The notes beneath the pieces were generated by a model. That model saw only the letters and a list, made by a program, of their open reading frames with translations. It was not told where the DNA came from and did no database searches. A stretch of 40,706 bases of DNA from Saprospiraceae bacterium (GTDB lineage: Bacteria > Bacteroidota > Bacteroidia > Chitinophagales > Saprospiraceae), in the NCBI GenBank assembly GCA_022448945.1, contig JAKVCV010000029.1, forward strand, positions 1-40,706, given 5' to 3'. A program made the position numbers and the translations under genes. Below, in pieces: positions 1 to 10,447 of the stretch (its first letter is position 1; every line of letters starts with the position of its first letter).

Positions 1-1173
1 CTTGAAAAGAAAAAGGCCAAAATAAAACACGATGAAGTGCAATCTGATCCCGGTGGCGGACCAAACCTTACTGTAGGTACCAATAAAGATGGAAGTGTTT
101 ATGGTGGCTTGTCCTATAAGTCAGATGAAGGCAAGGAAGGCGGATTTACAGTGGATAGTGAGGGGACTGTAAATATTAAGGTCGGAAAAGAGACTAAAGG
201 TGATGATGGAAAATCCAAAGTAGGTCTTGAGGTAAATACAAAAGGTGAATTTAAGGGTACTGCAGAGCATGAATTCAAAAGCGGGATCAAGGGAAGTGCT
301 GAAATTACCAATGATAAATTAAAACTTGAACTGGGCAAGAAGTGGTCTATGGAGACACCTTCTATTTACTGGCCTATCATCCCTTCGACAAATCCAACTG
401 GTATTGGTTTATTTATTAGCGGACGGTTGAAAGGAACTGCAGGTATTGCTGCCAGTGAAGAGGTTAATTGGACAGAAGGTATGTCCAAGATTGGCATTAA
501 TGTAAATGGTAGTGTAACAGGCTCTGTCAGAATTGGTGCAGAAGTAGTTGGTTTCCTCGCTGTTTCAGGTGAATGTTCTATCACTACCTCTTTGGCAGGA
601 AATGGTTATCTGGTTTACAAAGGTGGCGACGATCTTTCTCCCGAAGCATCTGTAACTGGTGGTCTTGATTTTAATCTTGATCTCATTCTCGGGCTTTCTG
701 AACCTATTATACAAAGTGCTATTAAGGTTGGTGTAAAAAGATCGCAACTGGAATTGAAATATCCGATCAGCAAAAAGGAGCTTTTAAAATTCCAGGGTTG
801 TAAACTGCAGGATGGTGAATTAATCGTGCCTAATAAATGGCAGGATGCCTTTACCGCAGGTAAGGATTTGCAACCTATCATTGATGGAATCAATAGTTGT
901 CTGGACAGCATAATGGAAGTCTGGAACTCTATTGCTCATTGCTTTAATGAAGCATATGAATTGGTTGATGGAGCAGCAGAGTACTGGAAAAAACATGGTG
1001 TAATTGGTACGCTTGAAGATTTTGCTAATGAGTTAAATGACTATGTTGATGAAAAAATTGAAGGTACTCCTGTAGGAGAAGCCAAAGATTTCTGGTCAGA
1101 AAAAGGGTTTACCGGTGGCCTTAAAGAATTTGGAGACGAAGTAGGGGACTTGTGGGATAGTTTTTGGGATTAA
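1..1173 (+). CDS. Partial glycine-rich beta protein, probable member of the tagged island family (5' end outside window)
   Basis: The frame is open to the left edge, so the true start lies outside the window; the GTG at 37 is in frame but is probably internal. The 12 codons before it read LEKKKAKIKHDE, which resembles the end of the tag helix in the gene at 8607 (LEKKEQSKIHSEQ). This suggests that the same N-terminal helical module was cut by the window edge. The body (about residues 15-260 of the visible part) is a run of glycine- and lysine-rich short beta-like segments with alternating polar and hydrophobic residues. The last ~110 residues are helical and amphipathic with many Trp and Phe (the protein ends in WDSFWD). 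There is no signal peptide in the visible part. I do not recognise the family. A membrane-active or shell-type beta structure is possible but unproven. The next island gene follows after 69 bases. Confidence 0.8.
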   Translation, partial: LEKKKAKIKHDEVQSDPGGGPNLTVGTNKDGSVYGGLSYKSDEGKEGGFTVDSEGTVNIKVGKETKGDDGKSKVGLEVNTKGEFKGTAEHEFKSGIKGSAEITNDKLKLELGKKWSMETPSIYWPIIPSTNPTGIGLFISGRLKGTAGIAASEEVNWTEGMSKIGINVNGSVTGSVRIGAEVVGFLAVSGECSITTSLAGNGYLVYKGGDDLSPEASVTGGLDFNLDLILGLSEPIIQSAIKVGVKRSQLELKYPISKKELLKFQGCKLQDGELIVPNKWQDAFTAGKDLQPIIDGINSCLDSIMEVWNSIAHCFNEAYELVDGAAEYWKKHGVIGTLEDFANELNDYVDEKIEGTPVGEAKDFWSEKGFTGGLKEFGDEVGDLWDSFWD

Positions 1174-1242
1174 ACATTGAATAGTTATTCCAATAAAAGT
1201 TAACCCTTGAATTCATAATTAAAAAATTTAAACAAAATAGAT

Positions 1243-1554
1243 ATGTCAGTTGATATTCAAAAAAAGGAAGAAAAACTCAATAGATTAAAGAAAGTTTTAG
1301 AGGAGTTTATAAAACAGTCTACAAGTGCTGAAGACGATTCACCTTTTGTGCTAGATGCCAAAGAGGAAGCTCAGGTAAAGGATTTGTGGGATAAAATCCA
1401 AAAAATGGAAGCTAGAATAGCTGAGTTAAAAGAAAAGGGCGCAGATTCAGAAAAAGCGTCTTCGGATATAAAAGCCGTTATCGATAAGATGAAACAAAAA
1501 ATTAACGAGCTTGGTGAAAGGATATCTCAATTGAGAGATAAATTAAATAAATAG
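1243..1554 (+). CDS. Small coiled-coil protein, tag module almost alone
   Basis: A 103-residue, almost entirely helical, highly charged protein with no signal peptide or membrane segment. Residues 1-65 align by pattern with the N-terminal module of the downstream genes: a first helix, a loop (about 25-36, here longer and without the D-G pair), then a second helix with E41 and the spaced hydrophobics of KDLWDKIQKMEARIAEL. Residues 66-103 form a further helical pair rich in Lys and Glu (KQKINELGERISQLRDK). It carries no cargo domain. It could be an adaptor, plug or chaperone for the larger proteins sharing the module, but this is inference. No terminator is seen between it and the gene at 1652, so the two may be cotranscribed. 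Confidence 0.8.
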   Translation: MSVDIQKKEEKLNRLKKVLEEFIKQSTSAEDDSPFVLDAKEEAQVKDLWDKIQKMEARIAELKEKGADSEKASSDIKAVIDKMKQKINELGERISQLRDKLNK

Positions 1555-1651
1555 TTTTTAAGTTTAAATTTGTTTGTTGATTATCCTAGATATATAAATC
1601 ATATAGTCAACAAAAATTTAGAATTACCATAAATCAAAAGTAAACTAGAAA

Positions 1652-3259
1652 ATGAGTGAAAAATTAGATAAACTACAGGATGATCTCCAGGTTATGAAAA
1701 GTCAGCTGGATCGTTATTTGAAATTATTTCAGGCTGATGGTTACATAACCCCAAAAGAGATGGAGCGACTCATTGAAATGCAAAATTATGTAGAGACAAT
1801 TGAATATAAAATTGCAGAAATAAATATTAAAAATCCATCAAATAAATTATTGAGTGAGGAAGAAACTGAAAAGGCAATACAAGTAAATAGTAAACATAAA
1901 GCAGATACTTGGAAGCTCATTGGAGACGTTTTGGGTGTTCCCGGAATTTTAGATGCTACTTTAGTACAGGCACTTGCAAAATTTCAAAAAGCCAAAGGAC
2001 TCGAAATTGATGGAATGGTTGGCGATTATACTTTTCAATGGCTTTCGCTTCATCCAAGTGGTAAGGGTAAAGCACTTGGAAAATTAGTTAAAAGCGAACA
2101 TGTCATGTATTTAGGGATGAGAGGTGTCTCCCGTAAACGCGAAGCAGCTGTTGTTACTCAAACCGTAGGGTCTAAAAACGCAACTATAATTGAAGGTAGT
2201 GTAGAAGAAAATAAAATTGACGTTGAAGGTGAATTAGTAGATTTGGAAACTTCTGACGGATTGGATGCTTTCTTGGATTCATTGGTTAATGTCAATGAAG
2301 CTGAAAAGGTGATTTTGAAAGAGGTTATTGAGAATATTAGAAATAATGCTAGAGATGAAGTCTGTAATTTTGTTAGACAAATGAATGAGGCTGAAAATGG
2401 AAAAAAATTGTTTAAAAGATTAGTTCTTTCGGGGCACAGTGATGGTTGGTATATTGTAGGTGATGACAATGAGGGATCTTATACATTTAAAGATATTGCC
2501 AATATTGGTAAGGTCTTTTCAAATGCATTTAAACAAGTTGAAGATTTGCAGATTGCCGGATGTAATACAGGGCAGGAAGCCAAATTAGATCAGCATTTGA
2601 AAATGTTTCCCAACCTAAAAACAATATGGGCATATGCGGATTTTTCTCCAAGTCCTGATACAGGTAGTAAATACCATATAAAAAAATGGCTTAAAGGAAC
2701 TGAGGGAAGAGGAGATGCAAAAATTGATGCTGCTCGTAAGGATGTTTCCAATGATGGAGGCAGTAAAGATAAAAATATAGCAACATATAAGGTTGACTCT
2801 GATGAATATAAAACGGATCATTCAATGTCGGGCTGGGATTTGCAAAGAGTTTCTGATGAATTATGGCCGGTTGAACACTATTATACAGAAGCGTTTTTTT
2901 ATGGGAAAATAAATAAGGCAGGTTTGAGGGATTTACAATCACTTTTGCAGAATTTTACTGGACGTCCTGAAGCTAAATCTCATTATAATTTTCAAAAATA
3001 CTTGAAAATGAATACCCATGTTTTACTTCTGCGTCATTGGCCACAGTATAATCATCACTTTATGCAAAACCATGGAACAGATGTTAATAAGGGGTACAAT
3101 GAGATAGGTAGGGAAGTTCCGAATTTTGAAAAGATGACCAGAAAGGAAACACTTGACGAAATTAAACAGTTCCAGCCTAAAGGAGAAGATTCTGAGGCAA
3201 CGAAATCCTTGTTGGTAGATATTCTTGAAAAACTTAACGGAGACAGTACTTGGATTTAG
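1652..3259 (+). CDS. Tag + peptidoglycan-binding-like + putative caspase-fold (clan CD-like) protein, copy 1
   Basis: 535 residues. Residues 1-62 are the helix-loop-helix tag (loop LFQADGYITPKE). Residues ~70-132 resemble a PG_binding_1 domain: the stretch ALAKFQKAKGLEIDGMVGD has the FQ-x3-GL-x2-DG-x2-G pattern. Residues ~150-345 look like a His/Cys unit: RLVLSGHSDGW places His262 after a hydrophobic strand, and LQIAGCNTGQ places Cys304 after another strand 42 residues later. This order and spacing is what clan CD peptidases (caspase, gingipain, CHAT) show. A conserved block follows (FPNLKTIWAYADFSPSP, then a W-x4-T-x-GRG element). The C-terminal ~150 residues are helical and unknown. There is no signal peptide, so export would need a dedicated machine. 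It is a close paralogue of the gene at 3418, with both putative catalytic residues at identical positions. Peptidase activity is inferred from motif layout only. Confidence 0.88.
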   Translation: MSEKLDKLQDDLQVMKSQLDRYLKLFQADGYITPKEMERLIEMQNYVETIEYKIAEINIKNPSNKLLSEEETEKAIQVNSKHKADTWKLIGDVLGVPGILDATLVQALAKFQKAKGLEIDGMVGDYTFQWLSLHPSGKGKALGKLVKSEHVMYLGMRGVSRKREAAVVTQTVGSKNATIIEGSVEENKIDVEGELVDLETSDGLDAFLDSLVNVNEAEKVILKEVIENIRNNARDEVCNFVRQMNEAENGKKLFKRLVLSGHSDGWYIVGDDNEGSYTFKDIANIGKVFSNAFKQVEDLQIAGCNTGQEAKLDQHLKMFPNLKTIWAYADFSPSPDTGSKYHIKKWLKGTEGRGDAKIDAARKDVSNDGGSKDKNIATYKVDSDEYKTDHSMSGWDLQRVSDELWPVEHYYTEAFFYGKINKAGLRDLQSLLQNFTGRPEAKSHYNFQKYLKMNTHVLLLRHWPQYNHHFMQNHGTDVNKGYNEIGREVPNFEKMTRKETLDEIKQFQPKGEDSEATKSLLVDILEKLNGDSTWI

Positions 3260-3290
3260 CAATTGTAACGTCTTTATAATATAAATTTAA

Positions 3291-3325
3291 AAAATCCTCA
3301 GATAGGAGTATCTGAGGATTTTTTT
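3291..3325 (+). terminator. Rho-independent terminator after caspase-like copy 1
   Basis: A perfect 12-base stem (AATCCTCAGATA / TATCTGAGGATT) with a GGAG loop runs into a T tract. It lies 32 bases after the stop at 3259 and separates the two paralogous genes into different transcripts. Confidence 0.92.
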
Positions 3326-3326
3326 C

Positions 3327-3359
3327 TTGAATTTCTACATAGGTTAACTATTATATTTG
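3327..3359 (+). promoter_or_regulatory. Candidate Bacteroidota promoter for caspase-like copy 2
   Basis: TTG at 3327-3329 and TATATTTG at 3352-3359, with a 22-base spacer, fit the -33/-7 pattern (TTG, TAnnTTTG). It starts right after the terminator of the preceding gene and leaves a leader of about 55 bases before the ATG at 3418, so the second paralogue can be expressed on its own. Confidence 0.5.
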
Positions 3360-3417
3360 ATATTATATTTCTCAATTAAAACTTAACTACCTAGGCGTTG
3401 AAAAAGCATAATGTTAT

Positions 3418-5025
3418 ATGAGTAAGAAATTAGAAAAACTTCAGGAAAATATTACTGAGATAAAAAAAGAATTAGATCGTTATTTGTCAATGATTAAGGA
3501 TGAAGCATCGTTTTCTAATGACGAGGTAGGTCGTTTAATTGAAATGCAAAATATGGTTGAAGCCATAGAATATCGCATTGCAGAAATAACGATTCAAGAT
3601 CAAACAATAACTATTCTTACAAAAGAAGAGGTGCAAAAAGCGCTTCTTGTAAATAAAAAATATAAGAACAATATTTGGAAGCAGATAGGTGACGTTTTAG
3701 GTGTGCCAGGTGTCTTGGGGCCTGTTATGATAGAGTCCTTGGCCAAATTTCAAAAAGCAAAGGGGCTTGGGAAGGATGGAATATTAGGAGATTTTACGTT
3801 TCAGTGGCTAGCTTTACATCCAAGTGGAAAAGGTAAGGGATTGGAAAGTCTAATCAAAAATGAAGACGTCTTATATATTGGTATGCGTCATGCCTCGCGC
3901 AAAAAAGAAGGAGCAATTATAGAAAATACTGTGGGTAAAAAGCATTCTACATTAATTCTAGGATCTCAGCAAGAGAATAAAATAAAAGTGGGAGAGGGAA
4001 TGGTTGATTTGATGAGTAATACTGGAATGGATGCTTTTTTGAATGCTCTTATAAATGTTAGCGAAGCAGAAAAAGCGATTCTTAAACGTGTTATTGATAA
4101 TCTAGTAGGCAATAGTAAAGATGAAGTTGCTACATTTATTCGTCAGATGAATTTAGCCGAAAATGGCAAAAAACTTTTTAAAAGATTGGTACTTTCTGGG
4201 CACAGTGATGGTTGGTATATAATAGGGGATGGAGAACAAGGCTTGTTTAAATTTGATGAGTTAAAAACAGTAGGTGATGTTTTTCCTAATGCCTTTAAGC
4301 AGGTTGAAGATTTACATATTGCAGGTTGTAATTCAGGTCAAGAGTCAAAATTGGATCAACATTTAAAAATGTTTCCAAATTTAAAAACCATATGGGCATA
4401 TGCAGATTTTTCTCCAAGTCCCCGTACAGGCAGTAGATATCATATAAAGAAATGGCTTAAAGGTACCGATGGCCGTGGTGAAGATAAACTTGAAATTGCA
4501 CGAAAAGATGTTTCTAATGATGGAGGTAGCAAGGATAAGAATGTTGCAACATACAAGGTAGATTCTCAAGAATATAATACAGATCATACCATGACTCAAT
4601 GGACTATTGATAGAATAATAAGAGAAATTAAGCTTAATGAAAAATTTTATCACGAAGCCCATCAACAAGGAAAAATGAATATGGCTGGTTTGCGTAATTT
4701 GCAATCTGCATTACAAGCATATTTGGGCAAGCCTGAAGCAAAAACTGACTTTTACTATCAGGATTTTTCCCCAATGAATAAGAACGTACTTCTTTTACGT
4801 CATTGGAAACAATATAATGAGCACTTTATTAAACATTTTGGTAAGCAAATCAAAAGAGGTTACGATGAGATCGGTAAGAAAGTGCCTGACTTTATAGGTA
4901 TGACAAGAGCAGAAACAATTAAAGAATTTCGATTTTTTAAAGCAACGGGCGATTTGTCTATCAAAACTAAAGAGTTGATCTATTATTACCTTATTGAATT
5001 GGAAGGAGAAAGTACCTGGATATAA
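3418..5025 (+). CDS. Tag + peptidoglycan-binding-like + putative caspase-fold (clan CD-like) protein, copy 2
   Basis: 535 residues, exactly the length of its upstream paralogue, with no obvious gaps over the motifs I compared. The tag (1-62) has a degenerate loop (IKDEASFSNDE, the D-G pair lost). The peptidoglycan-binding-like part (~70-132) has FQKAKGLGKDGILGD. The putative catalytic residues are His262 (LSGHSDGWYI) and Cys304 (HIAGCNSGQ). The following block FPNLKTIWAYADFSPSP is identical to copy 1. Divergence is highest in the tag loop, around residues 60-80 and 160-240, and in the C-terminal helical part (~390-535). The His and Cys surroundings are nearly invariant, which argues for selection on that site. 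There is no signal peptide. It has its own candidate promoter and terminator. The two copies may be variants with different targets; this is inference. Confidence 0.88.
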   Translation: MSKKLEKLQENITEIKKELDRYLSMIKDEASFSNDEVGRLIEMQNMVEAIEYRIAEITIQDQTITILTKEEVQKALLVNKKYKNNIWKQIGDVLGVPGVLGPVMIESLAKFQKAKGLGKDGILGDFTFQWLALHPSGKGKGLESLIKNEDVLYIGMRHASRKKEGAIIENTVGKKHSTLILGSQQENKIKVGEGMVDLMSNTGMDAFLNALINVSEAEKAILKRVIDNLVGNSKDEVATFIRQMNLAENGKKLFKRLVLSGHSDGWYIIGDGEQGLFKFDELKTVGDVFPNAFKQVEDLHIAGCNSGQESKLDQHLKMFPNLKTIWAYADFSPSPRTGSRYHIKKWLKGTDGRGEDKLEIARKDVSNDGGSKDKNVATYKVDSQEYNTDHTMTQWTIDRIIREIKLNEKFYHEAHQQGKMNMAGLRNLQSALQAYLGKPEAKTDFYYQDFSPMNKNVLLLRHWKQYNEHFIKHFGKQIKRGYDEIGKKVPDFIGMTRAETIKEFRFFKATGDLSIKTKELIYYYLIELEGESTWI

Positions 5026-5029
5026 TATA

Positions 5030-5056
5030 AAAGCGCAACAATTCTTGCGTTTTTTT
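5030..5056 (+). terminator. Rho-independent terminator after caspase-like copy 2
   Basis: Stem AAAGCGCAA / TTGCGTTTT (one G-T pair) with loop CAATTC, followed by a T run. It begins five bases after the stop codon. Confidence 0.8.
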
Positions 5057-5102
5057 GTTTAGTAATTGTCAATTCTAATTTCATGTTTTATAATGTATAC
5101 AA

Positions 5103-5561
5103 ATGTCCTTATATCAATTTTTTCAAGAACAAAAATTAAATACTACGATAGAAGAAGCCTGGGATTTTATTTCCGCTCCTAAAAATTTACAAAAGATCAC
5201 TCCGGACTATATGGGTTTTAATATTGTTACACCAAATCTACCGAATAAAATATACGAAGGAATGCTTATTCAGTATAAAGTGCGCCCCTTATTAGGGCTT
5301 AAGATGAATTGGTTAACAGAGATTACACAGGTTAAGGAACTTAAATTCTTTGTGGATGAACAACGAATAGGTCCATATTCGATCTGGCATCATCAGCATT
5401 TTTTAGAGCCTTTAGATCAAGGAGTTCTTATGAAAGATATTGTAAGCTATGTGCCACCTTTTGGCTATTTGGGCGACATTGCTAATACCCTTTTTATTAG
5501 AAGAAAACTCGACTCAATATTTAAATATAGAAAGGAAGTCCTTGAAAAATTATTTAACTGA
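5103..5561 (+). CDS. SRPBCC-family ligand-binding-like protein
   Basis: 152 residues with the layout of small START/Bet-v1-like SRPBCC proteins common in Bacteroidota. These begin with a strand, then the N-terminal helical segment (TTIEEAWDFISAPKNLQKITP), a central antiparallel sheet (around GMLIQYKVRPLLGLKMNW and the FVDEQRIGPYSIWHHQHF strand), and end with a long C-terminal helix (RRKLDSIFKYRKEVLEKLF). Members bind hydrophobic ligands in a cavity; the ligand cannot be told here. The protein lacks the tag module of its neighbours, has no signal peptide and is probably cytosolic. It stands between two island genes, with a terminator upstream of it. It may be a bystander or an accessory gene. 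Family assignment is from overall pattern and the WDFIS...L.KITP start. Confidence 0.85.
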   Translation: MSLYQFFQEQKLNTTIEEAWDFISAPKNLQKITPDYMGFNIVTPNLPNKIYEGMLIQYKVRPLLGLKMNWLTEITQVKELKFFVDEQRIGPYSIWHHQHFLEPLDQGVLMKDIVSYVPPFGYLGDIANTLFIRRKLDSIFKYRKEVLEKLFN

Positions 5562-5659
5562 TATAAACTTAGTTATTAATGATAGTTCCATAATTTTATG
5601 TTTATATTAGCTATTGATCTAATTAACATAAATATGATTGATAGCGCTTGCTCAATAAA

Positions 5660-5893
5660 ATGAAAAATCAAGAACACAAAATAGACGAGAAAAAGGCTGA
5701 TTTAAGAGAGGCGCTTGCCGCTTATGCGCAGTTTTATTCCCAATGCAATATTGATGGCTCAGTAGGGCCTGATGAGGTGAAAAAACTCAAGGAACTTCAG
5801 GAAAGAATAAAAGTCTGTGAACAGGAATTGAAATTATTGGTTGATGAAATTGCAAAGAATGATACGGGGCTTACTGATGATTTCGAAACATAA
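5660..5893 (+). CDS. Tag-only small helical protein
   Basis: From the ATG at 5660 this encodes 77 residues; an in-frame TTG at 5648 would add four, and I prefer the ATG. The whole protein is the helix-loop-helix tag: a first helix from about 6 to 26, the loop QCNIDGSVGPDE with EF-hand-like spacing (N, D-G, V, E at loop positions 3, 5-6, 8 and 12), and a second helix KKLKELQERIKVCEQEL. A short acidic tail follows (TGLTDDFET). There is no signal peptide or membrane segment. It is the shortest form of the module in the window and may show what the minimal unit is. A strong terminator follows, so it is the last gene of its transcript. Its function is unknown; an adaptor or regulator of the tagged proteins is a guess. 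Confidence 0.75.
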   Translation: MKNQEHKIDEKKADLREALAAYAQFYSQCNIDGSVGPDEVKKLKELQERIKVCEQELKLLVDEIAKNDTGLTDDFET

Positions 5894-5925
5894 ATAGCGA
5901 TCTGAATATTTTTGATTTATATAGC

Positions 5926-5954
5926 GCTACAACTGATGTTGTAGCTTTTTTTTT
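5926..5954 (+). terminator. Rho-independent terminator after tag-only gene
   Basis: A perfect 8-base stem (GCTACAAC / GTTGTAGC) with loop TGAT is followed by nine T residues, about 32 bases after the stop at 5893. Confidence 0.92.
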
Positions 5955-6336
5955 GTGGCAATTAATGTCATGAATTGTTCAATTTTTAAACATAAAAAAT
6001 AAGTTTTATTTAAAAATATAGGACTCAAAAATCAAAAAAAAAGATAGATATAAACTTGATTGAGGAGATATATTTTTATCTGAAAAATTCCAATTATTAA
6101 GAATAAAAATTTGCATTATTCTATAATTGCAAAATATATATTGATTTTTAGTGCGATTTGTCGACTACATCAACACAATAGATTGCCAGATTTTATATTA
6201 AAAAATTAAGTATATCGGTAACGAATCTATAGAATTTACATTAAATATTGTATTCGATTGAATACGTTGACAAACACTAAAATGCTCAAGTTTTACCTGA
6301 GTATATTTATTTAAAAAAAATCCAAATATTATAAAA
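5955..6336. other. AT-rich intergenic stretch
   Basis: About 380 bases without a convincing gene. It is very AT-rich. A perfect inverted repeat GTATTC-GATT-GAATAC sits at 6250-6265, directly before a TTGACA-like hexamer at 6267-6272, about 70 bases before the ATG at 6337. It could be an operator-like site for the gene at 6337. No clear TAnnTTTG promoter box was seen. Confidence 0.4.
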
Positions 6337-6918
6337 ATGAAAATGAATTTGAAAGCAAAAGATTTTGCTAAAAAAGATGAGTTAAAAAAATCATTAAGTA
6401 CCCTATTAAAAAAACCACTTCAGGCTTTGATGGATGGTAAAGTTGAAAAACTACCTTTTTGTTATGAAGTAGATTATTTTGGTTCTGACGAAGGATTTAT
6501 GTCAATCGGTGTAGCCAAAGAAATTGATAAAATGTTTAAAACCAAGAGAGCTAAAGGACAAGGAACTGAAGGGAAGATAGATAAGAAAAAAGTGGCTTAT
6601 GGAGTAGTAAAAAAGAACGCTGAAGGAATGCTTGAGTTTTGTGTGTTGGGCGGAATGATGAAGCCAATGCAGGCTAAAAAAGTGATCAAATCTATTCCGA
6701 TCTTAAAGAAAAAAGTAGGGGATAAATTTGTAATCGCTAAAGGTGAAGTTGTTACTGAAAATACTGAAGCAAAAACTGAAGAGAAAACAGAAGCAGCTAC
6801 GGATAACAAACCAGCGGGTAAAAAATTGACTCCTGAGCAAAAAGAGAAGATTAAGGTTAACATGACTAAGATCGATGCTAAATTAAAACAAATCGCTAAA
6901 GCACTAAAAATTGCATAG
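6337..6918 (+). CDS. Lysine-rich protein of unknown function inside the island
   Basis: 193 residues, strongly basic. An in-frame ATG at 6343 is a possible alternative start (MKMN versus MN). Residues 1-130 look like one compact domain with alternating strands and helices (LPFCYEVDYFGSDEGFMSIG, KKVAYGVVKKNAEGMLEFCVLGG). A low-complexity Ala/Glu/Thr/Lys linker (about 138-165) follows, and then a helix (LTPEQKEKIKVNMTKIDAKL). This last helix begins with a TPxE start and has spaced hydrophobics like the second helix of the tag in the neighbouring genes, but it lies at the C-terminus and may be only coincidentally similar. There is no signal peptide. I do not recognise the family. A long AT-rich leader precedes it and a structured intergenic element follows. 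Confidence 0.8.
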   Translation: MKMNLKAKDFAKKDELKKSLSTLLKKPLQALMDGKVEKLPFCYEVDYFGSDEGFMSIGVAKEIDKMFKTKRAKGQGTEGKIDKKKVAYGVVKKNAEGMLEFCVLGGMMKPMQAKKVIKSIPILKKKVGDKFVIAKGEVVTENTEAKTEEKTEAATDNKPAGKKLTPEQKEKIKVNMTKIDAKLKQIAKALKIA

Positions 6919-6932
6919 TAATTTTGTTTAAA

Positions 6933-7016
6933 TGGGAACGGTGGTTTATATCTAAAAATCCATAGTTCAATGATATTATAAACTATCAAAAAACGATTTT
7001 TAATCGATCGTTCCCA
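6933..7016 (+). repeat. Nested inverted repeats forming a long potential RNA hairpin
   Basis: Three nested, mutually compatible arm pairs occur: TGGGAACG 6933-6940 with CGTTCCCA 7009-7016, AAAAATC 6954-6960 with GATTTTT 6995-7001, and ATAGTT 6962-6967 with AACTAT 6981-6986. An alternative pair GTTTATA 6944-6950 with TATAAAC 6977-6983 competes with the inner stems. The element fills most of the gap between 6918 and 7059. There is no T run after it, so it is not a classic terminator. It could be an mRNA-stabilising or regulatory structure, or a remnant of a small mobile repeat. Confidence 0.5.
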
Positions 7017-7058
7017 GCCTAAAAATGTATTTTAAATTAATAACAAATTAAGAGAAAA

Positions 7059-8225
7059 ATGAGTCAAAAAATAGAAAAATTAAAAGAGCAGATATCAATA
7101 ATGAGAACAGAGTTGGAAAGGATAGGTAATCTATATAATTCTGATGGTGATATTGATGCTGGTGAACAAGACCATCTAAATTCTATGATGGAAACTATAG
7201 CAATGTGTGAGCAAAGATTGAATCAAGCTATAATTAATAATTCAAGATCTAGGCTTCCAGAAGATATTGTTGCTAATGAATCTGAAAAAAATCCTGAATA
7301 CATATATGACACTTTTGGTGGAGGAACATATACAGTGAAAAAAGGTGATTCTTTATCAAAAATTGCCACGGGAGTATATGGTAACAGAGCTTACTGGCCT
7401 CTTTTGAGAGATGCAAATAAAGATAGGGTTAGAAAAAATGGAAACTTAATTTTAGTAGGTGCAGTTTTGAATGTACCCTCAGTTGAAATAGCTGTTGCTT
7501 GTTCAGATCAGGACCAGTCTATACCTGATGATTTAAATGATGAATATAACACTTCACCTGTAGAGTTGCCGGAAAGTAAACCAGTAATACCTGCGGATGG
7601 TTATGAAGGAGGAGATGGAGTTGCCACAGAAGTTTGTAACCCTATTCTAAGATTTGAAATGCCTTCAACACCAATGTTAAATGCTGTTACTCCTTTAGGA
7701 ACTGCACAAGTTACACTTGATGGTTGGGTTCAAGTTGAAGATGGATCACCGTGTAATATCTTTGAATTTAGTCCTACTGGCTATAAGGCAACTGCTACTC
7801 AAGTTTTTGATAATTTTAAAACTGGGTGGAGTATTAAACAAGCTACAAATGGCGGGGCAACTATTACACATAGCATTGCCGGTAAATATTCAACTACTAA
7901 AGTTTCTGTACTTCCAAATGGATCGTTGAAGTTTACCTTTGAAGCTAAACCAGTAGAATATAAAAAAGGTAAATGGAAAGCTAAAGGGACTATAGGAATA
8001 TCATTGATTATTACTCCTGCACCACAACCTCTCCCCGAACCGATTGTTGTTCGTGAACCAGTTAGAGTTCGTGTTCCAGAAATAGGTAAATGGGAAGCTG
8101 TTGGATTACTTGCGTTGGCTGGGCTTACAGTTATAGTTGTAACAATTGACCCGATACCTGGCGATGAAGTTCCTGGTTATGCTGCTGCAGCATCTTGGTT
8201 TGGATTGGCAGTTACTGCTTTTTAA
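7059..8225 (+). CDS. Tag + LysM protein with C-terminal hydrophobic pair
   Basis: 388 residues. The tag is at 1-62 (loop LYNSDGDIDAGE, the best EF-hand-like match in the window). A LysM domain lies at about 90-141 (YTVKKGDSLSKIATGVYGN, then WPLLRDAN and LILVGAVLNVPS). LysM binds peptidoglycan, and short LysM units also occur at the base of phage tails and contractile injection systems. Residues ~185-320 look like a beta-rich domain of unknown family. A proline/arginine linker (PLPEPIVVREPVRVRVPE) leads to two hydrophobic segments at about 347-363 and 373-388, the second being the extreme C-terminus. There is no signal peptide. The C-terminal pair could insert in a membrane, which would suit a pore- or anchor-type effector; that is inference. 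A hairpin follows the gene. Confidence 0.88.
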   Translation: MSQKIEKLKEQISIMRTELERIGNLYNSDGDIDAGEQDHLNSMMETIAMCEQRLNQAIINNSRSRLPEDIVANESEKNPEYIYDTFGGGTYTVKKGDSLSKIATGVYGNRAYWPLLRDANKDRVRKNGNLILVGAVLNVPSVEIAVACSDQDQSIPDDLNDEYNTSPVELPESKPVIPADGYEGGDGVATEVCNPILRFEMPSTPMLNAVTPLGTAQVTLDGWVQVEDGSPCNIFEFSPTGYKATATQVFDNFKTGWSIKQATNGGATITHSIAGKYSTTKVSVLPNGSLKFTFEAKPVEYKKGKWKAKGTIGISLIITPAPQPLPEPIVVREPVRVRVPEIGKWEAVGLLALAGLTVIVVTIDPIPGDEVPGYAAAASWFGLAVTAF

Positions 8226-8280
8226 TGTGAAAGTAAGTCAATGACTGGATAAAAAGTCACATTTTGTATAGATGTTTAAT

Positions 8281-8313
8281 ATAAAACCTCACTATCCAGA
8301 GTGGGGTTTTATT
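8281..8313 (+). terminator. Hairpin terminator after the LysM gene
   Basis: A 12-base stem (ATAAAACCTCAC with GTGGGGTTTTAT, one T-G pair) and an 8-base loop lie 55 bases after the stop codon. The T run is short and interrupted by A, so termination may be partial. Confidence 0.65.
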
Positions 8314-8394
8314 ATGCTCAATCAAACTTGATTTTAGAAAGGTACTTTTATACACATCAAATACTGATATTGAAAAGAACAATTGAAAAGAAGT

Positions 8395-8499
8395 ATGTCT
8401 GCATTAGGAGCAAAATTTTGTGAGGGAATTAGCTTGGGTCAAAATGCAACAGATTTTATTGGCTGGTTTGATAGTAAAAAAAAGGCTTATAAATCTTAA
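8395..8499 (+). CDS. Possible 34-residue ORF
   Basis: ATG at 8395 to TAA at 8497-8499 encodes 34 residues starting MSALGAKFCEGISLGQNA and ending in a Lys-rich tail. A purine-rich stretch (GAAAAGAAG) lies right before the ATG. The composition is protein-like, but the ORF is short and lies in a gap between two island genes. It may be a genuine microprotein, the remnant of a lost gene, or chance. No family is recognised. It is included because it otherwise leaves a 381-base gap (8226-8606) holding only the hairpin at 8281 and a promoter-like box. Confidence 0.3.
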   Translation: MSALGAKFCEGISLGQNATDFIGWFDSKKKAYKS

Positions 8500-8509
8500 A
8501 AATAAATTG

Positions 8510-8517
8510 TATTTTTG
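8510..8517 (+). promoter_or_regulatory. Candidate -7 box for the helical tagged gene
   Basis: TATTTTTG matches TAnnTTTG and is followed by CA. No good TTG box lies about 20 bases upstream, so the call rests on the -7 element alone. It would give a leader of about 80 bases before the ATG at 8607. Confidence 0.35.
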
Positions 8518-8606
8518 CAGGGAATAAATATAAGAAAATATTATATATATATTTATTATAGTGGGGTGGGGTGTTAAACTTAAATGTTAAATTAAAAAAT
8601 TGAAAA

Positions 8607-9968
8607 ATGACAGATCTGAAAAAGTTAAAATTAGACTTAGTTGAAATAAAGGTTTTTATAGAAGGGTTGAAATTATACTATACTTATGATGATGGGCTAT
8701 TCGATATTGGAATTGATAAAGAAGAACAAAAGCACATCGATAGAATGGAGGCATTGATGAAGAAGATTAAGAAAAAAATAACACAATTAGAGAAAAAAGA
8801 ACAAAGTAAGATCCACAGCGAACAAGCTAAGTGTAAGGCAGTAGTAGGAAAAGATGAAAGCTTAATAACAGTATTAGACGCATTAGAAACACAACGCAAG
8901 ACGGTAGATCGATTATATAAAAATGTAGGAATCTTAAAAGATAACTGGTTGGGAAATATATCTAAGGTTGCCTCTAATTGTATGTCTGCTAAAGGAACTT
9001 TTGAGACTTTACTAAAAGAACAAAAAAAGGCAGAAGACAAAGCACAGAAATCAGAAGCAGCACTGAAAGCATTAGGATTGACATTGTTTAATTTAGCAGT
9101 GCCATTTGCTGCAAATGTTTTAAGTCATCAAGTCTCCAAATTGATCACAAAACCTGCGACGAGTGCAAATTCCAGAATAAGTGGTTTTGCACAAAAAATA
9201 TCAGGGTTAAATGCTGAAGAATTGAGAGGAAAGTATGCAGAAGAATGGGCAGGAGTCATTACTAAAGTGAAGAATGTGAAATTAACGACCAGAGCTAATC
9301 CTGATCAGGAACCCAATAAGCCTTCTGTTGACCAAGCATTTAGTTTTGTGCATAAGTGGTATTCCACAACTTATGAAACATTTTCAACTGCCCGACAAAA
9401 AATGCTGGACCTACTATCCAAATTAGATATGTTGGATGTTCAATTAAAAATTATAAAAAATTCGGATATTGGAACTTCTGATTTTGCTAAAAAAGTAGCA
9501 TCTGTAGTCTCTCAGGTTTCTTGTAAAGGTATCGCTGCAGAAGTTGGGCAGCTGCAAGGTTCTATATCAAAATTGGCTGCACCAACTTTAATGAAGGATA
9601 GCGGGATGCATGAATTATTTTTGAAATACTATCTTCTTAAATGGTTACCGGCTTTATCTTATGTAGAGGTTAAAACAGTAACAGATTACTCTAACCCTCA
9701 AGATACTATTTTAGTAGGGGGAGGAATGCGTACAATATACGGAACTAAAAAGGTTTACGAAACAGAGTATAAAGATGTATTAGCAAACGAAATACGTAAA
9801 TATTTGAAAAAATATGGTGCTTCTGGTAAATTATTGGATTTTAAAAATGGAAAATGGTTTTCAAGTGAGCCGGAGAATGATATAAAAGGGCTTATTAGTT
9901 GGGGGAATAAAAAGTTGGAGACTGATTTTGGAGATCCTATCTGGAAAAAGGCATTGGGTTTGGTGTAA
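8607..9968 (+). CDS. Tag + long helical protein with one hydrophobic helix
   Basis: 453 residues. The tag is at 1-66, with a loop two or three residues longer than in the others (YDDGLFDIGIDKEE) and a second helix ending KKITQLEKKEQSK. Residues ~85-150 continue as charged helices. A hydrophobic stretch lies at ~152-171 (LGLTLFNLAVPFAANVL), and helices rich in Lys, Ser and Ala follow to ~350 (including LLSKLDMLDVQLKIIKN). A mixed C-terminal part (~350-453) has strand-like segments. Long helices around one central hydrophobic hairpin or helix are seen in alpha-helical pore-forming toxins, but I cannot assign such a family. There is no signal peptide. Protein-like sequence continues after the stop in another frame (see 9967-10089), so the present C-terminus may result from a frameshift. 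Confidence 0.85.
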   Translation: MTDLKKLKLDLVEIKVFIEGLKLYYTYDDGLFDIGIDKEEQKHIDRMEALMKKIKKKITQLEKKEQSKIHSEQAKCKAVVGKDESLITVLDALETQRKTVDRLYKNVGILKDNWLGNISKVASNCMSAKGTFETLLKEQKKAEDKAQKSEAALKALGLTLFNLAVPFAANVLSHQVSKLITKPATSANSRISGFAQKISGLNAEELRGKYAEEWAGVITKVKNVKLTTRANPDQEPNKPSVDQAFSFVHKWYSTTYETFSTARQKMLDLLSKLDMLDVQLKIIKNSDIGTSDFAKKVASVVSQVSCKGIAAEVGQLQGSISKLAAPTLMKDSGMHELFLKYYLLKWLPALSYVEVKTVTDYSNPQDTILVGGGMRTIYGTKKVYETEYKDVLANEIRKYLKKYGASGKLLDFKNGKWFSSEPENDIKGLISWGNKKLETDFGDPIWKKALGLV

Positions 9969-10089
9969 TGGTATTTTAACATTTGATTATACATTGGATA
10001 AAGATGTTAAAACTAAAGATGGAAATTGGTCCGTTAATTTCCCACAGGGAGAGTGGTGGTCATTTAAATTGGAAAATTATTCAAAATAA
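9967..10089 (+). pseudogene. Out-of-frame C-terminal tail remnant
   Basis: Directly after the TAA at 9966-9968, the +1 frame reads NGILTFDYTLDKDVKTKDG and then a Trp-rich end (NWSV, GEWWSFKLENYSK) before TAA at 10087-10089. It has no ATG start, looks like real protein, and is followed 16 bases later by a good terminator, as a gene end would be. The simplest reading is that the gene at 8607 once continued into this frame and a one-base indel near 9955-9967 (in or close to GGGTTTGGTG) shortened it. Alternatives are a sequencing error, programmed frameshifting, or the remnant of a separate domain. Confidence 0.5.
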
Positions 10090-10104
10090 AATGTAATTAT
10101 TTTC

Positions 10105-10137
10105 AATCTCCTCACAATTTTGTGGGGAGATTTTTTT
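10105..10137 (+). terminator. Rho-independent terminator at the end of the island
   Basis: Stem AATCTCCTCA with TGGGGAGATT (one T-G pair), a short CAATTT-type loop and a seven-T run. It lies between the island and the convergent gene ending at 10148. Confidence 0.88.
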
Positions 10138-10147
10138 GTGTATTGCG

Positions 10148-10447
10148 TTATTCCCTCAACTCATGGATGCTAACAACTGACCATGCTTCAGCTTTCGCAG
10201 CAAAACCAGGTTTCGTAAGGTTCCAGGTCTCTTTAAAGAAATTAGAATTCCGATATTTGTTTAGTGATGCTTCACTGTCCCAAAAGCTATGTGAAAAAAT
10301 AATACATGGGTTTTTGGTATCTTGTAAAACTTGTAAATAAGTACATCCTTCAAAATTTCGGATCTTTTCTTTTCTTTTATTTAACTCACTTAAAAAATCT
10401 TCTACGACTTCTTCTCTGAATGTCATTTTTACGAATCTGATTAGCAT
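10148..10447 (-). CDS. Antibiotic biosynthesis monooxygenase (ABM)-fold protein
   Basis: 99 residues with the dimeric ferredoxin-like ABM pattern. The protein opens with the strand MLIRFVKMTF, then a helix (VVEDFLSELNKRKEKIRNF), a second strand with GCTYLQVLQD, then the usual PCIIFSHSFWDSEASLNKYR element in which the W-D/E-S-x-E/A-x-L/F pattern of the family is visible, and HxS-type C-terminal residues. Members include quinol and heme-degrading monooxygenases and many uncharacterised stress-type enzymes; the substrate cannot be given. It is transcribed towards the island and divergently from recQ, from which 321 bases separate it. It is likely cytosolic. Confidence 0.82.
   Translation of the reverse strand: MLIRFVKMTFREEVVEDFLSELNKRKEKIRNFEGCTYLQVLQDTKNPCIIFSHSFWDSEASLNKYRNSNFFKETWNLTKPGFAAKAEAWSVVSIHELRE

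Follow-up and report, generated by a model that had tools for sequence, protein, structure and literature searches.

Substrates of type VII secretion of the LXG and WXG100 families carry an N-terminal helical hairpin ahead of variable toxins. In type VI secretion systems (T6SSs), MIX and WHIX are domains that mark or export effectors. For T6SS effectors of Vibrionaceae and Moritellaceae, the RIX domain was described as an N-terminal segment of ~55 residues with two predicted helices, followed by polymorphic cargo including lysozyme-like and protease domains; the genes lie outside the T6SS cluster, immunity genes are found beside the antibacterial cargos and some cargo-less members are adaptors (PMC10435454); a domain of this kind is expected to be both required and sufficient for secretion by the T6SS. 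In extracellular injection systems of the PVC type, ~50 N-terminal residues load the cargo together with the AAA ATPase Pvc15 (PMC11495950). Here, we describe a module of ~60 residues (the tag) that opens six proteins encoded at 1243, 1652, 3418, 5660, 7059 and 8607 in a stretch of 40,706 nucleotides (the window), which constitutes the entire contig JAKVCV010000029.1 of the 4.35-Mb genome of a Saprospiraceae bacterium (GCA_022448945.1, G000). The named records with tagged relatives belong to Aureispira (Saprospiraceae), a genus of marine predators, including Aureispira sp. CCB-QB1, and our set comprises nine Aureispira genomes, the genome of the window counted in.

The best reading is that the Aureispira tag is an undescribed tag that functions like RIX. 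As in the published description of RIX, a short N-terminal helical tag (N-terminal here in 65 of 71 proteins) precedes polymorphic C-termini and the genes are unlinked to the injection locus. RIX is described as arginine-rich, whereas arginine accounts for 3.3% of residues in the Aureispira tag, which furthermore has a D-G-x-I-D-x2-E turn, occurs in another phylum and would serve another type of injection system, its export being predicted. With MIX and WHIX the tag can be set side by side by description only. The PVC-type signal is a segment of similar length at the same end of the protein, and a loading role of the Aureispira tag would be analogous; by eye no Pvc15-type AAA ATPase was seen in the Aureispira injection locus, for which no dedicated search was made. 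The 71 proteins match 21 Pfam families, and LXG and WXG are not among them (no search was made for type VII genes); nor is PAAR, which an earlier sequence-only reading of the window had named among its examples of cargo tags.

The six open reading frames (ORFs) lie where this reading had placed them, and its common N-terminal design is confirmed, by the profile and in ten of the 15 possible pairs, the other five being non-significant. When the first 70 residues were compared with 1000 shuffles per pair, the real score was reached by at most 4 of 1000 shuffles in the ten pairs and by 40 to 250 in the others (1243/5660, and 8607 with 1243, 1652, 3418 and 5660). Because the other pairs of 8607 are not significant, its membership rests on the match to 7059 (4/1000 shuffles) and on profiles that include 8607 itself. 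A search of the own genome with a profile of the six N-termini (A1) returned 11 further genes outside the window with E values of 7e-16 to 4.9e-6, the next row following at E 0.19, and this is a non-circular test of the shared module. In an alignment of 64 modules (A5) the most conserved columns are E (98%), D (95%), G (90%), Y (82%) and two I (81% and 76%), and the consensus reads Y-x3-F-x2-D-G-x-I-D-x2-E-Q-x2-L-D-x-M-x3-I. Of 6400 shuffled modules the best gave E 0.013; given this control and the weak matches elsewhere in Bacteroidota described below, the profile is specific and does not collapse into generic coiled coils.

The tag is likely, though not proved, to be a helix-turn-helix. Ahead of the turn, hydrophobicity follows a helical period (best angle 105 degrees, equalled by 0.06% of shuffles), and proline makes up 0.2% of the 3505 module residues. 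The PDB sequence comparison of the tag gave a best E of 0.012, and none of the 21 Pfam families covers the module convincingly, in line with the earlier statement that no named domain fits; a DUF533 match (E 2e-4) in one member resembling the 6337 protein may touch it. The D-G-x-I-D-x2-E turn corresponds to the second half of an EF-hand loop between two helices. However, the tag is devoid of the acidic positions of the first half-loop, no EF-hand family was matched and EF-hand PDB chains gave E values of 0.05-0.94 only; the tag does not qualify as an EF-hand.

By sequence search within Bacteroidota, the tag is specific to the genus Aureispira. A query of 16 rows from the own genome (A2) matched all nine Aureispira genomes and none of 51 other relatives, of which 28 belong to the same family and 23 to the same order. 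In a census with A5, partly self-matching as this alignment includes most census sequences, there were 74 matches at E<=1e-3 (17 in the own genome, then 7, 7, 11, 5, 6, 9, 5 and 7), and six further rows have E values of 0.003 to 0.008. Two genomes (G004 and G008) are near-identical strains, so that counts across genomes are not all independent. The 71 proteins were obtained by profile (70) or by hand (one), and three of the 74 matches (G001:C47, G005:C283, G006:C401) were left out of the reading. Frames of 470-490 residues in four Aureispira genomes weakly match the module's second half (E 0.003-0.007; G004:C1:294862, G006:C457:13, G007:C210:35525, G008:C24:112570). Among 395 Bacteroidota sampled across the phylum the own genome matches and nine of the 394 others give one weak match each, all of them internal to proteins judged by eye to be alpha/beta-hydrolase, response-regulator, SMC-like and CutA-like. 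The expectation that the tag would be widespread in Bacteroidota thus failed.

The tag would always be N-terminal according to the earlier proposal, and this applies to 65 of the 71 proteins but not to six of one family, in which it is internal. In 64 proteins the module begins between residues 2 and 30, in one, whose start is doubtful, at residue 45, and in the six between residues 110 and 237. The other parts of the proteins form 33 BLAST groups, of which the largest is probably chained via peptidoglycan-binding repeats. Pfam families found are PG_binding_1 (14), Peptidase_C2 (9), CHAP (9), PG_binding_3 (8), OmpA (7), DUF2272 (6), Muramidase (2), GH108 (2), LysM (2) and M15/VanY (1), to which nine TIGR02594 matches are added. 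The predicted constant N-terminus with varied C-termini was thereby confirmed, with calpain-like proteases, TIGR02594/CHAP, muramidase, GH108, M15, peptidoglycan-binding, LysM and OmpA-like parts, and a constant N-terminus with exchangeable cargo is what characterizes polymorphic toxin systems. All nine TIGR02594 matches of the nine Aureispira genomes fall in tagged genes, four of them from the G004/G008 pair, and nine of the 33 Peptidase_C2 (calpain-like) rows of the genus lie in tagged genes. The absence of a signal peptide was likewise upheld: counted from five residues ahead of the module, a hydrophobic leader is present in none of the 65 N-terminally tagged proteins, compared to 51% of 433 other ORFs called mechanically from the same loci.

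In the window, the tagged genes and their relatives are arranged as follows.

1 to 1173, + strand: C-terminal part of a further tagged protein, truncated by the contig start (the listed ORF opens at a GTG at 37); its tag lies outside the window
1243 to 1554, + strand: bare-tag protein of 103 residues, tag at ~1243-1437 and a second helical stretch after it; A5 match at E 8.8e-11, its own row being within A5
1652 to 3259, + strand: protein of 535 residues with tag (~1652-1825), PG_binding_1 (residues 97-131) and a putative further domain with invariant H262 and C304
3418 to 5025, + strand: paralog of 1652, tag at ~3418-3588
5660 to 5893, + strand: bare-tag protein of 77 residues; a TTG start at 5648 is also possible in the ORF list
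6337 to 6918, + strand: protein of 193 residues of an adaptor-like family, itself without a tag copy, its relatives having an internal one
7059 to 8225, + strand: protein of 388 residues with tag (~7059-7232), LysM (residues 91-140) and a further part with a hydrophobic C-terminal end
8607 to 9968, + strand: protein of 453 residues with tag (~8607-8798), pairwise the weakest of the six, and a long body that is mostly helical by eye

Since 1652 and 3418 are paralogs (60% identity across the full length) and 1243 and 5660 have no cargo, the window holds by sequence three distinct cargo types, not six. Of the C-termini assigned earlier, PG_binding_1 in 1652 (24.9 bits, Pfam cut-off 23) and LysM in 7059 are above their cut-offs, but PG_binding_1 in 3418 is slightly below (22.4 bits), and the supposed His/Cys domain amounts to a motif: H262 and C304 are identical in both paralogs, no Pfam family and no PDB sequence covers this region, and the best PDB match of the two proteins (E 0.049) is confined to the peptidoglycan-binding part. 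In a search covering 394 other Bacteroidota and plasmid records, with the remaining Aureispira genomes outside it, the 1652 cargo had no match. A defence role was set aside: PADLOC gave 1243 weak coiled-coil-like matches and 1652 a single weak one. Through their peptidoglycan-binding or LysM parts, the cargos of 1652, 3418 and 7059 match PHROG endolysin families; a phage origin was nevertheless set aside too, as reading the loci by eye revealed no prophage genes, a dedicated prophage search not having been made. Within the cluster, 78 bp after 3418-5025, a protein of 152 residues is encoded at 5103-5561 that is SRPBCC-like by eye and has no Pfam family. Of the 6337-type family eight members were seen, six with an internal tag copy, and each of the eight genes is the immediate upstream neighbour of a tagged gene, in loci selected for containing tagged genes. 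At another locus of the own genome (G000:C3:366336-367703 and 365411-366253, minus strand; L022 1458-9035 region) the gene behind a bare-tag gene opens by eye with a helical stretch resembling a diverged tag, without a profile match, and the next gene has an HNH-like motif by eye.

A difference in cargo behind the tag is seen between the near-identical strains G004 (L065) and G008 (L069). They share 99.5% identity over 5,696 bp spanning a 6337-type gene and 67 codons of the following tagged gene, the first 201 bases of which have one mismatch, and diverge from base 202. Beyond the break, a calpain domain follows in G008, with a small exported protein encoded after it, whereas G004 has a short end, a protein of 286 residues and a convergent exported protein. 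The differing blocks measure 1,586 and 1,751 bp, and downstream of them identity is 99.7% over 4,244 bp. The break thus falls directly after the module, and cargo and neighbours differ as one block.

The genes groES-groEL adjoin tagged genes in the own genome (G000 C13:1-5394 and window 1-10447), in G005 and in G007 (L096; L087), as though tagged cassettes preferred this site. Between the own genome and G005, the proteins encoded next to groEL agree at 77 of 144 N-terminal positions, with none of that agreement behind. Only G000 and G007 share the two flanks, groESL and an ABM-like gene (named by eye); the neighbours of the ABM-like or recQ gene are different in G002-G006, and G001 has no ABM match. 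Because G007 has both flanks of the own genome, it is supported that contig C13 adjoins the window. ORF 37-1173 has a near-identical counterpart, tag included, at G000:C13:119-1039, and judged from this its own tag is across the contig break.

Tagged genes are followed more often than other genes by genes for small exported proteins, which we regard as candidate immunity proteins that may protect the producer. A close exported neighbour was defined as the next ORF on the same strand within 30 bp, shorter than 310 residues and with a hydrophobic N-terminus. It is present for 18 of 59 tagged genes compared to 16 of 412 others (odds 10.9, p 2e-9), and for 14/51 compared to 13/350 (p 3e-7) after merging proteins at least 60% identical. 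The pairing of like cargo with like neighbour is partial. Of the nine calpain-type genes, six are followed by mutually alike neighbours, of which that in the own genome is not exported and is weakly linked (E 3e-4). Neighbours that are alike within the type also follow two genes of muramidase type, two metalloprotease-like ones (HExxH by eye) and three of OmpA type, and three peptidoglycan-binding-type genes have a common convergent neighbour. For one calpain-type gene no neighbour is in view.

Aureispira sp. CCB-QB1 was reported to have a subtype-iv T6SS (PMC11566945, citing Lien et al., 2024). One match to the sheath family was obtained in each of the nine Aureispira genomes, in some cases below the curated cut-off, and the genome of the window carries such a machine, as expected of a host of injected cargo. 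Its own sheath reaches 23.3 bits (cut-off 31.4) and is above the cut-off for the sheath C-terminal family. The Aureispira locus encodes sheath, tubes, hub, gp25 and baseplate proteins; in the own genome (C19:14211-28587) Pvc16, sheath, three gp19-type tubes, CIS_tube, gp25 and Baseplate_J were found, and in the closed genome G003 a spike with Phage_base_V domain and a PAAR protein were confirmed. The own injection locus is closely preceded by a GH18 (chitinase-type) gene (G000:C19:11464-13647), with homologs at the same place in G003 and G007 by eye. In the G003 locus, ORFs of 791 and 92 residues lie between baseplate genes (L134 6806-9569), the former without a Pfam family.

Taken together, we regard it as probable from these comparisons that the tag marks polymorphic effectors that are made without a leader and delivered by the Aureispira contractile injection system, with protecting neighbours and cassette exchange. 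The tube or spike of this system would recognise and dock the tag, the proteins would be injected into prey, where the cargo would cut peptidoglycan or protein, and in many cases the producer and its kin would be protected by a small exported protein encoded alongside; cargo and neighbour would be swapped as a cassette behind the constant tag, and bare-tag and 6337-type proteins could be adaptors. A narrower version, in which the tag is the loading signal of the predator's subtype-iv T6SS, a stand-alone hairpin sufficient for varied cargo with the D-G-x-I-D-x2-E turn as (perhaps cation-dependent) docking site and bare-tag and 6337-type proteins as adaptors, is put forward tentatively, at rather less than an even chance. 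The delivery tag proposed in the sequence-only reading thus agrees with the constant tag, varied cargo, missing leader and lack of a Pfam name, but not with its predicted spread across Bacteroidota or its expected place near injection genes. Several observations weigh against the main reading. The injection loci of five genomes (G000, G002, G003, G004 and, in part, G007) contain no module match at E<0.1, and in G003 the nearest tagged gene is ~407 kb from the sole sheath match. Eight of 31 other relatives have a sheath match without the tag, so that the two are not tied outside the genus. For 41 of 59 tagged genes, all six window genes included, there is no close exported neighbour, neighbours are unlike for two calpain-type genes and for the L061 pair of OmpA type, 24 of 33 Peptidase_C2 rows lie outside tagged genes, and helix 2 is weakly periodic (best angle 99 degrees, equalled by 11.5% of shuffles). 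Because the tagged genes are unlinked to injection-system genes, delivery by contractile injection can only be inferred.

This lack of linkage, and the genomes with sheath but without tag, would also suit polymorphic effectors released by cell lysis, vesicles or an unknown exporter, to which the tag recruits them. We consider this unlikely: RIX, as described in PMC10435454, is a known case of unlinked tags on injected effectors, and no alternative route for leaderless export came to light, although no search was aimed at one. Still less probable is an oligomerisation or regulatory domain that, for example, keeps enzymes inactive in the cytoplasm; the module is helical, charged, repeated, sometimes cargo-less and internal in the 6337-type family, but it mostly stands N-terminal to unrelated cargos, which are exchanged immediately after it. 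A generic coiled coil with similarity by composition, to which the many weak, noise-level coiled-coil-like Pfam matches of 1243 and the five non-significant pairs might point, is hardly credible and for the family as a whole contradicted by the 11 extra genes, the absence from 51 relatives, the conserved D, G, E and Y and the shuffle control.

Among the matches listed in the literature, there is no account of effectors of the Aureispira subtype-iv T6SS nor of the tag, of which an earlier notice in the main predator paper is possible. With 74 candidates (whole genes or pieces of genes) across nine genomes, many of them beside a candidate immunity gene, the injected proteins of this predator and their loading would become testable. 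If it is true that the tag alone loads cargo, it would represent a short signal by which a contractile system outside Proteobacteria is loaded.

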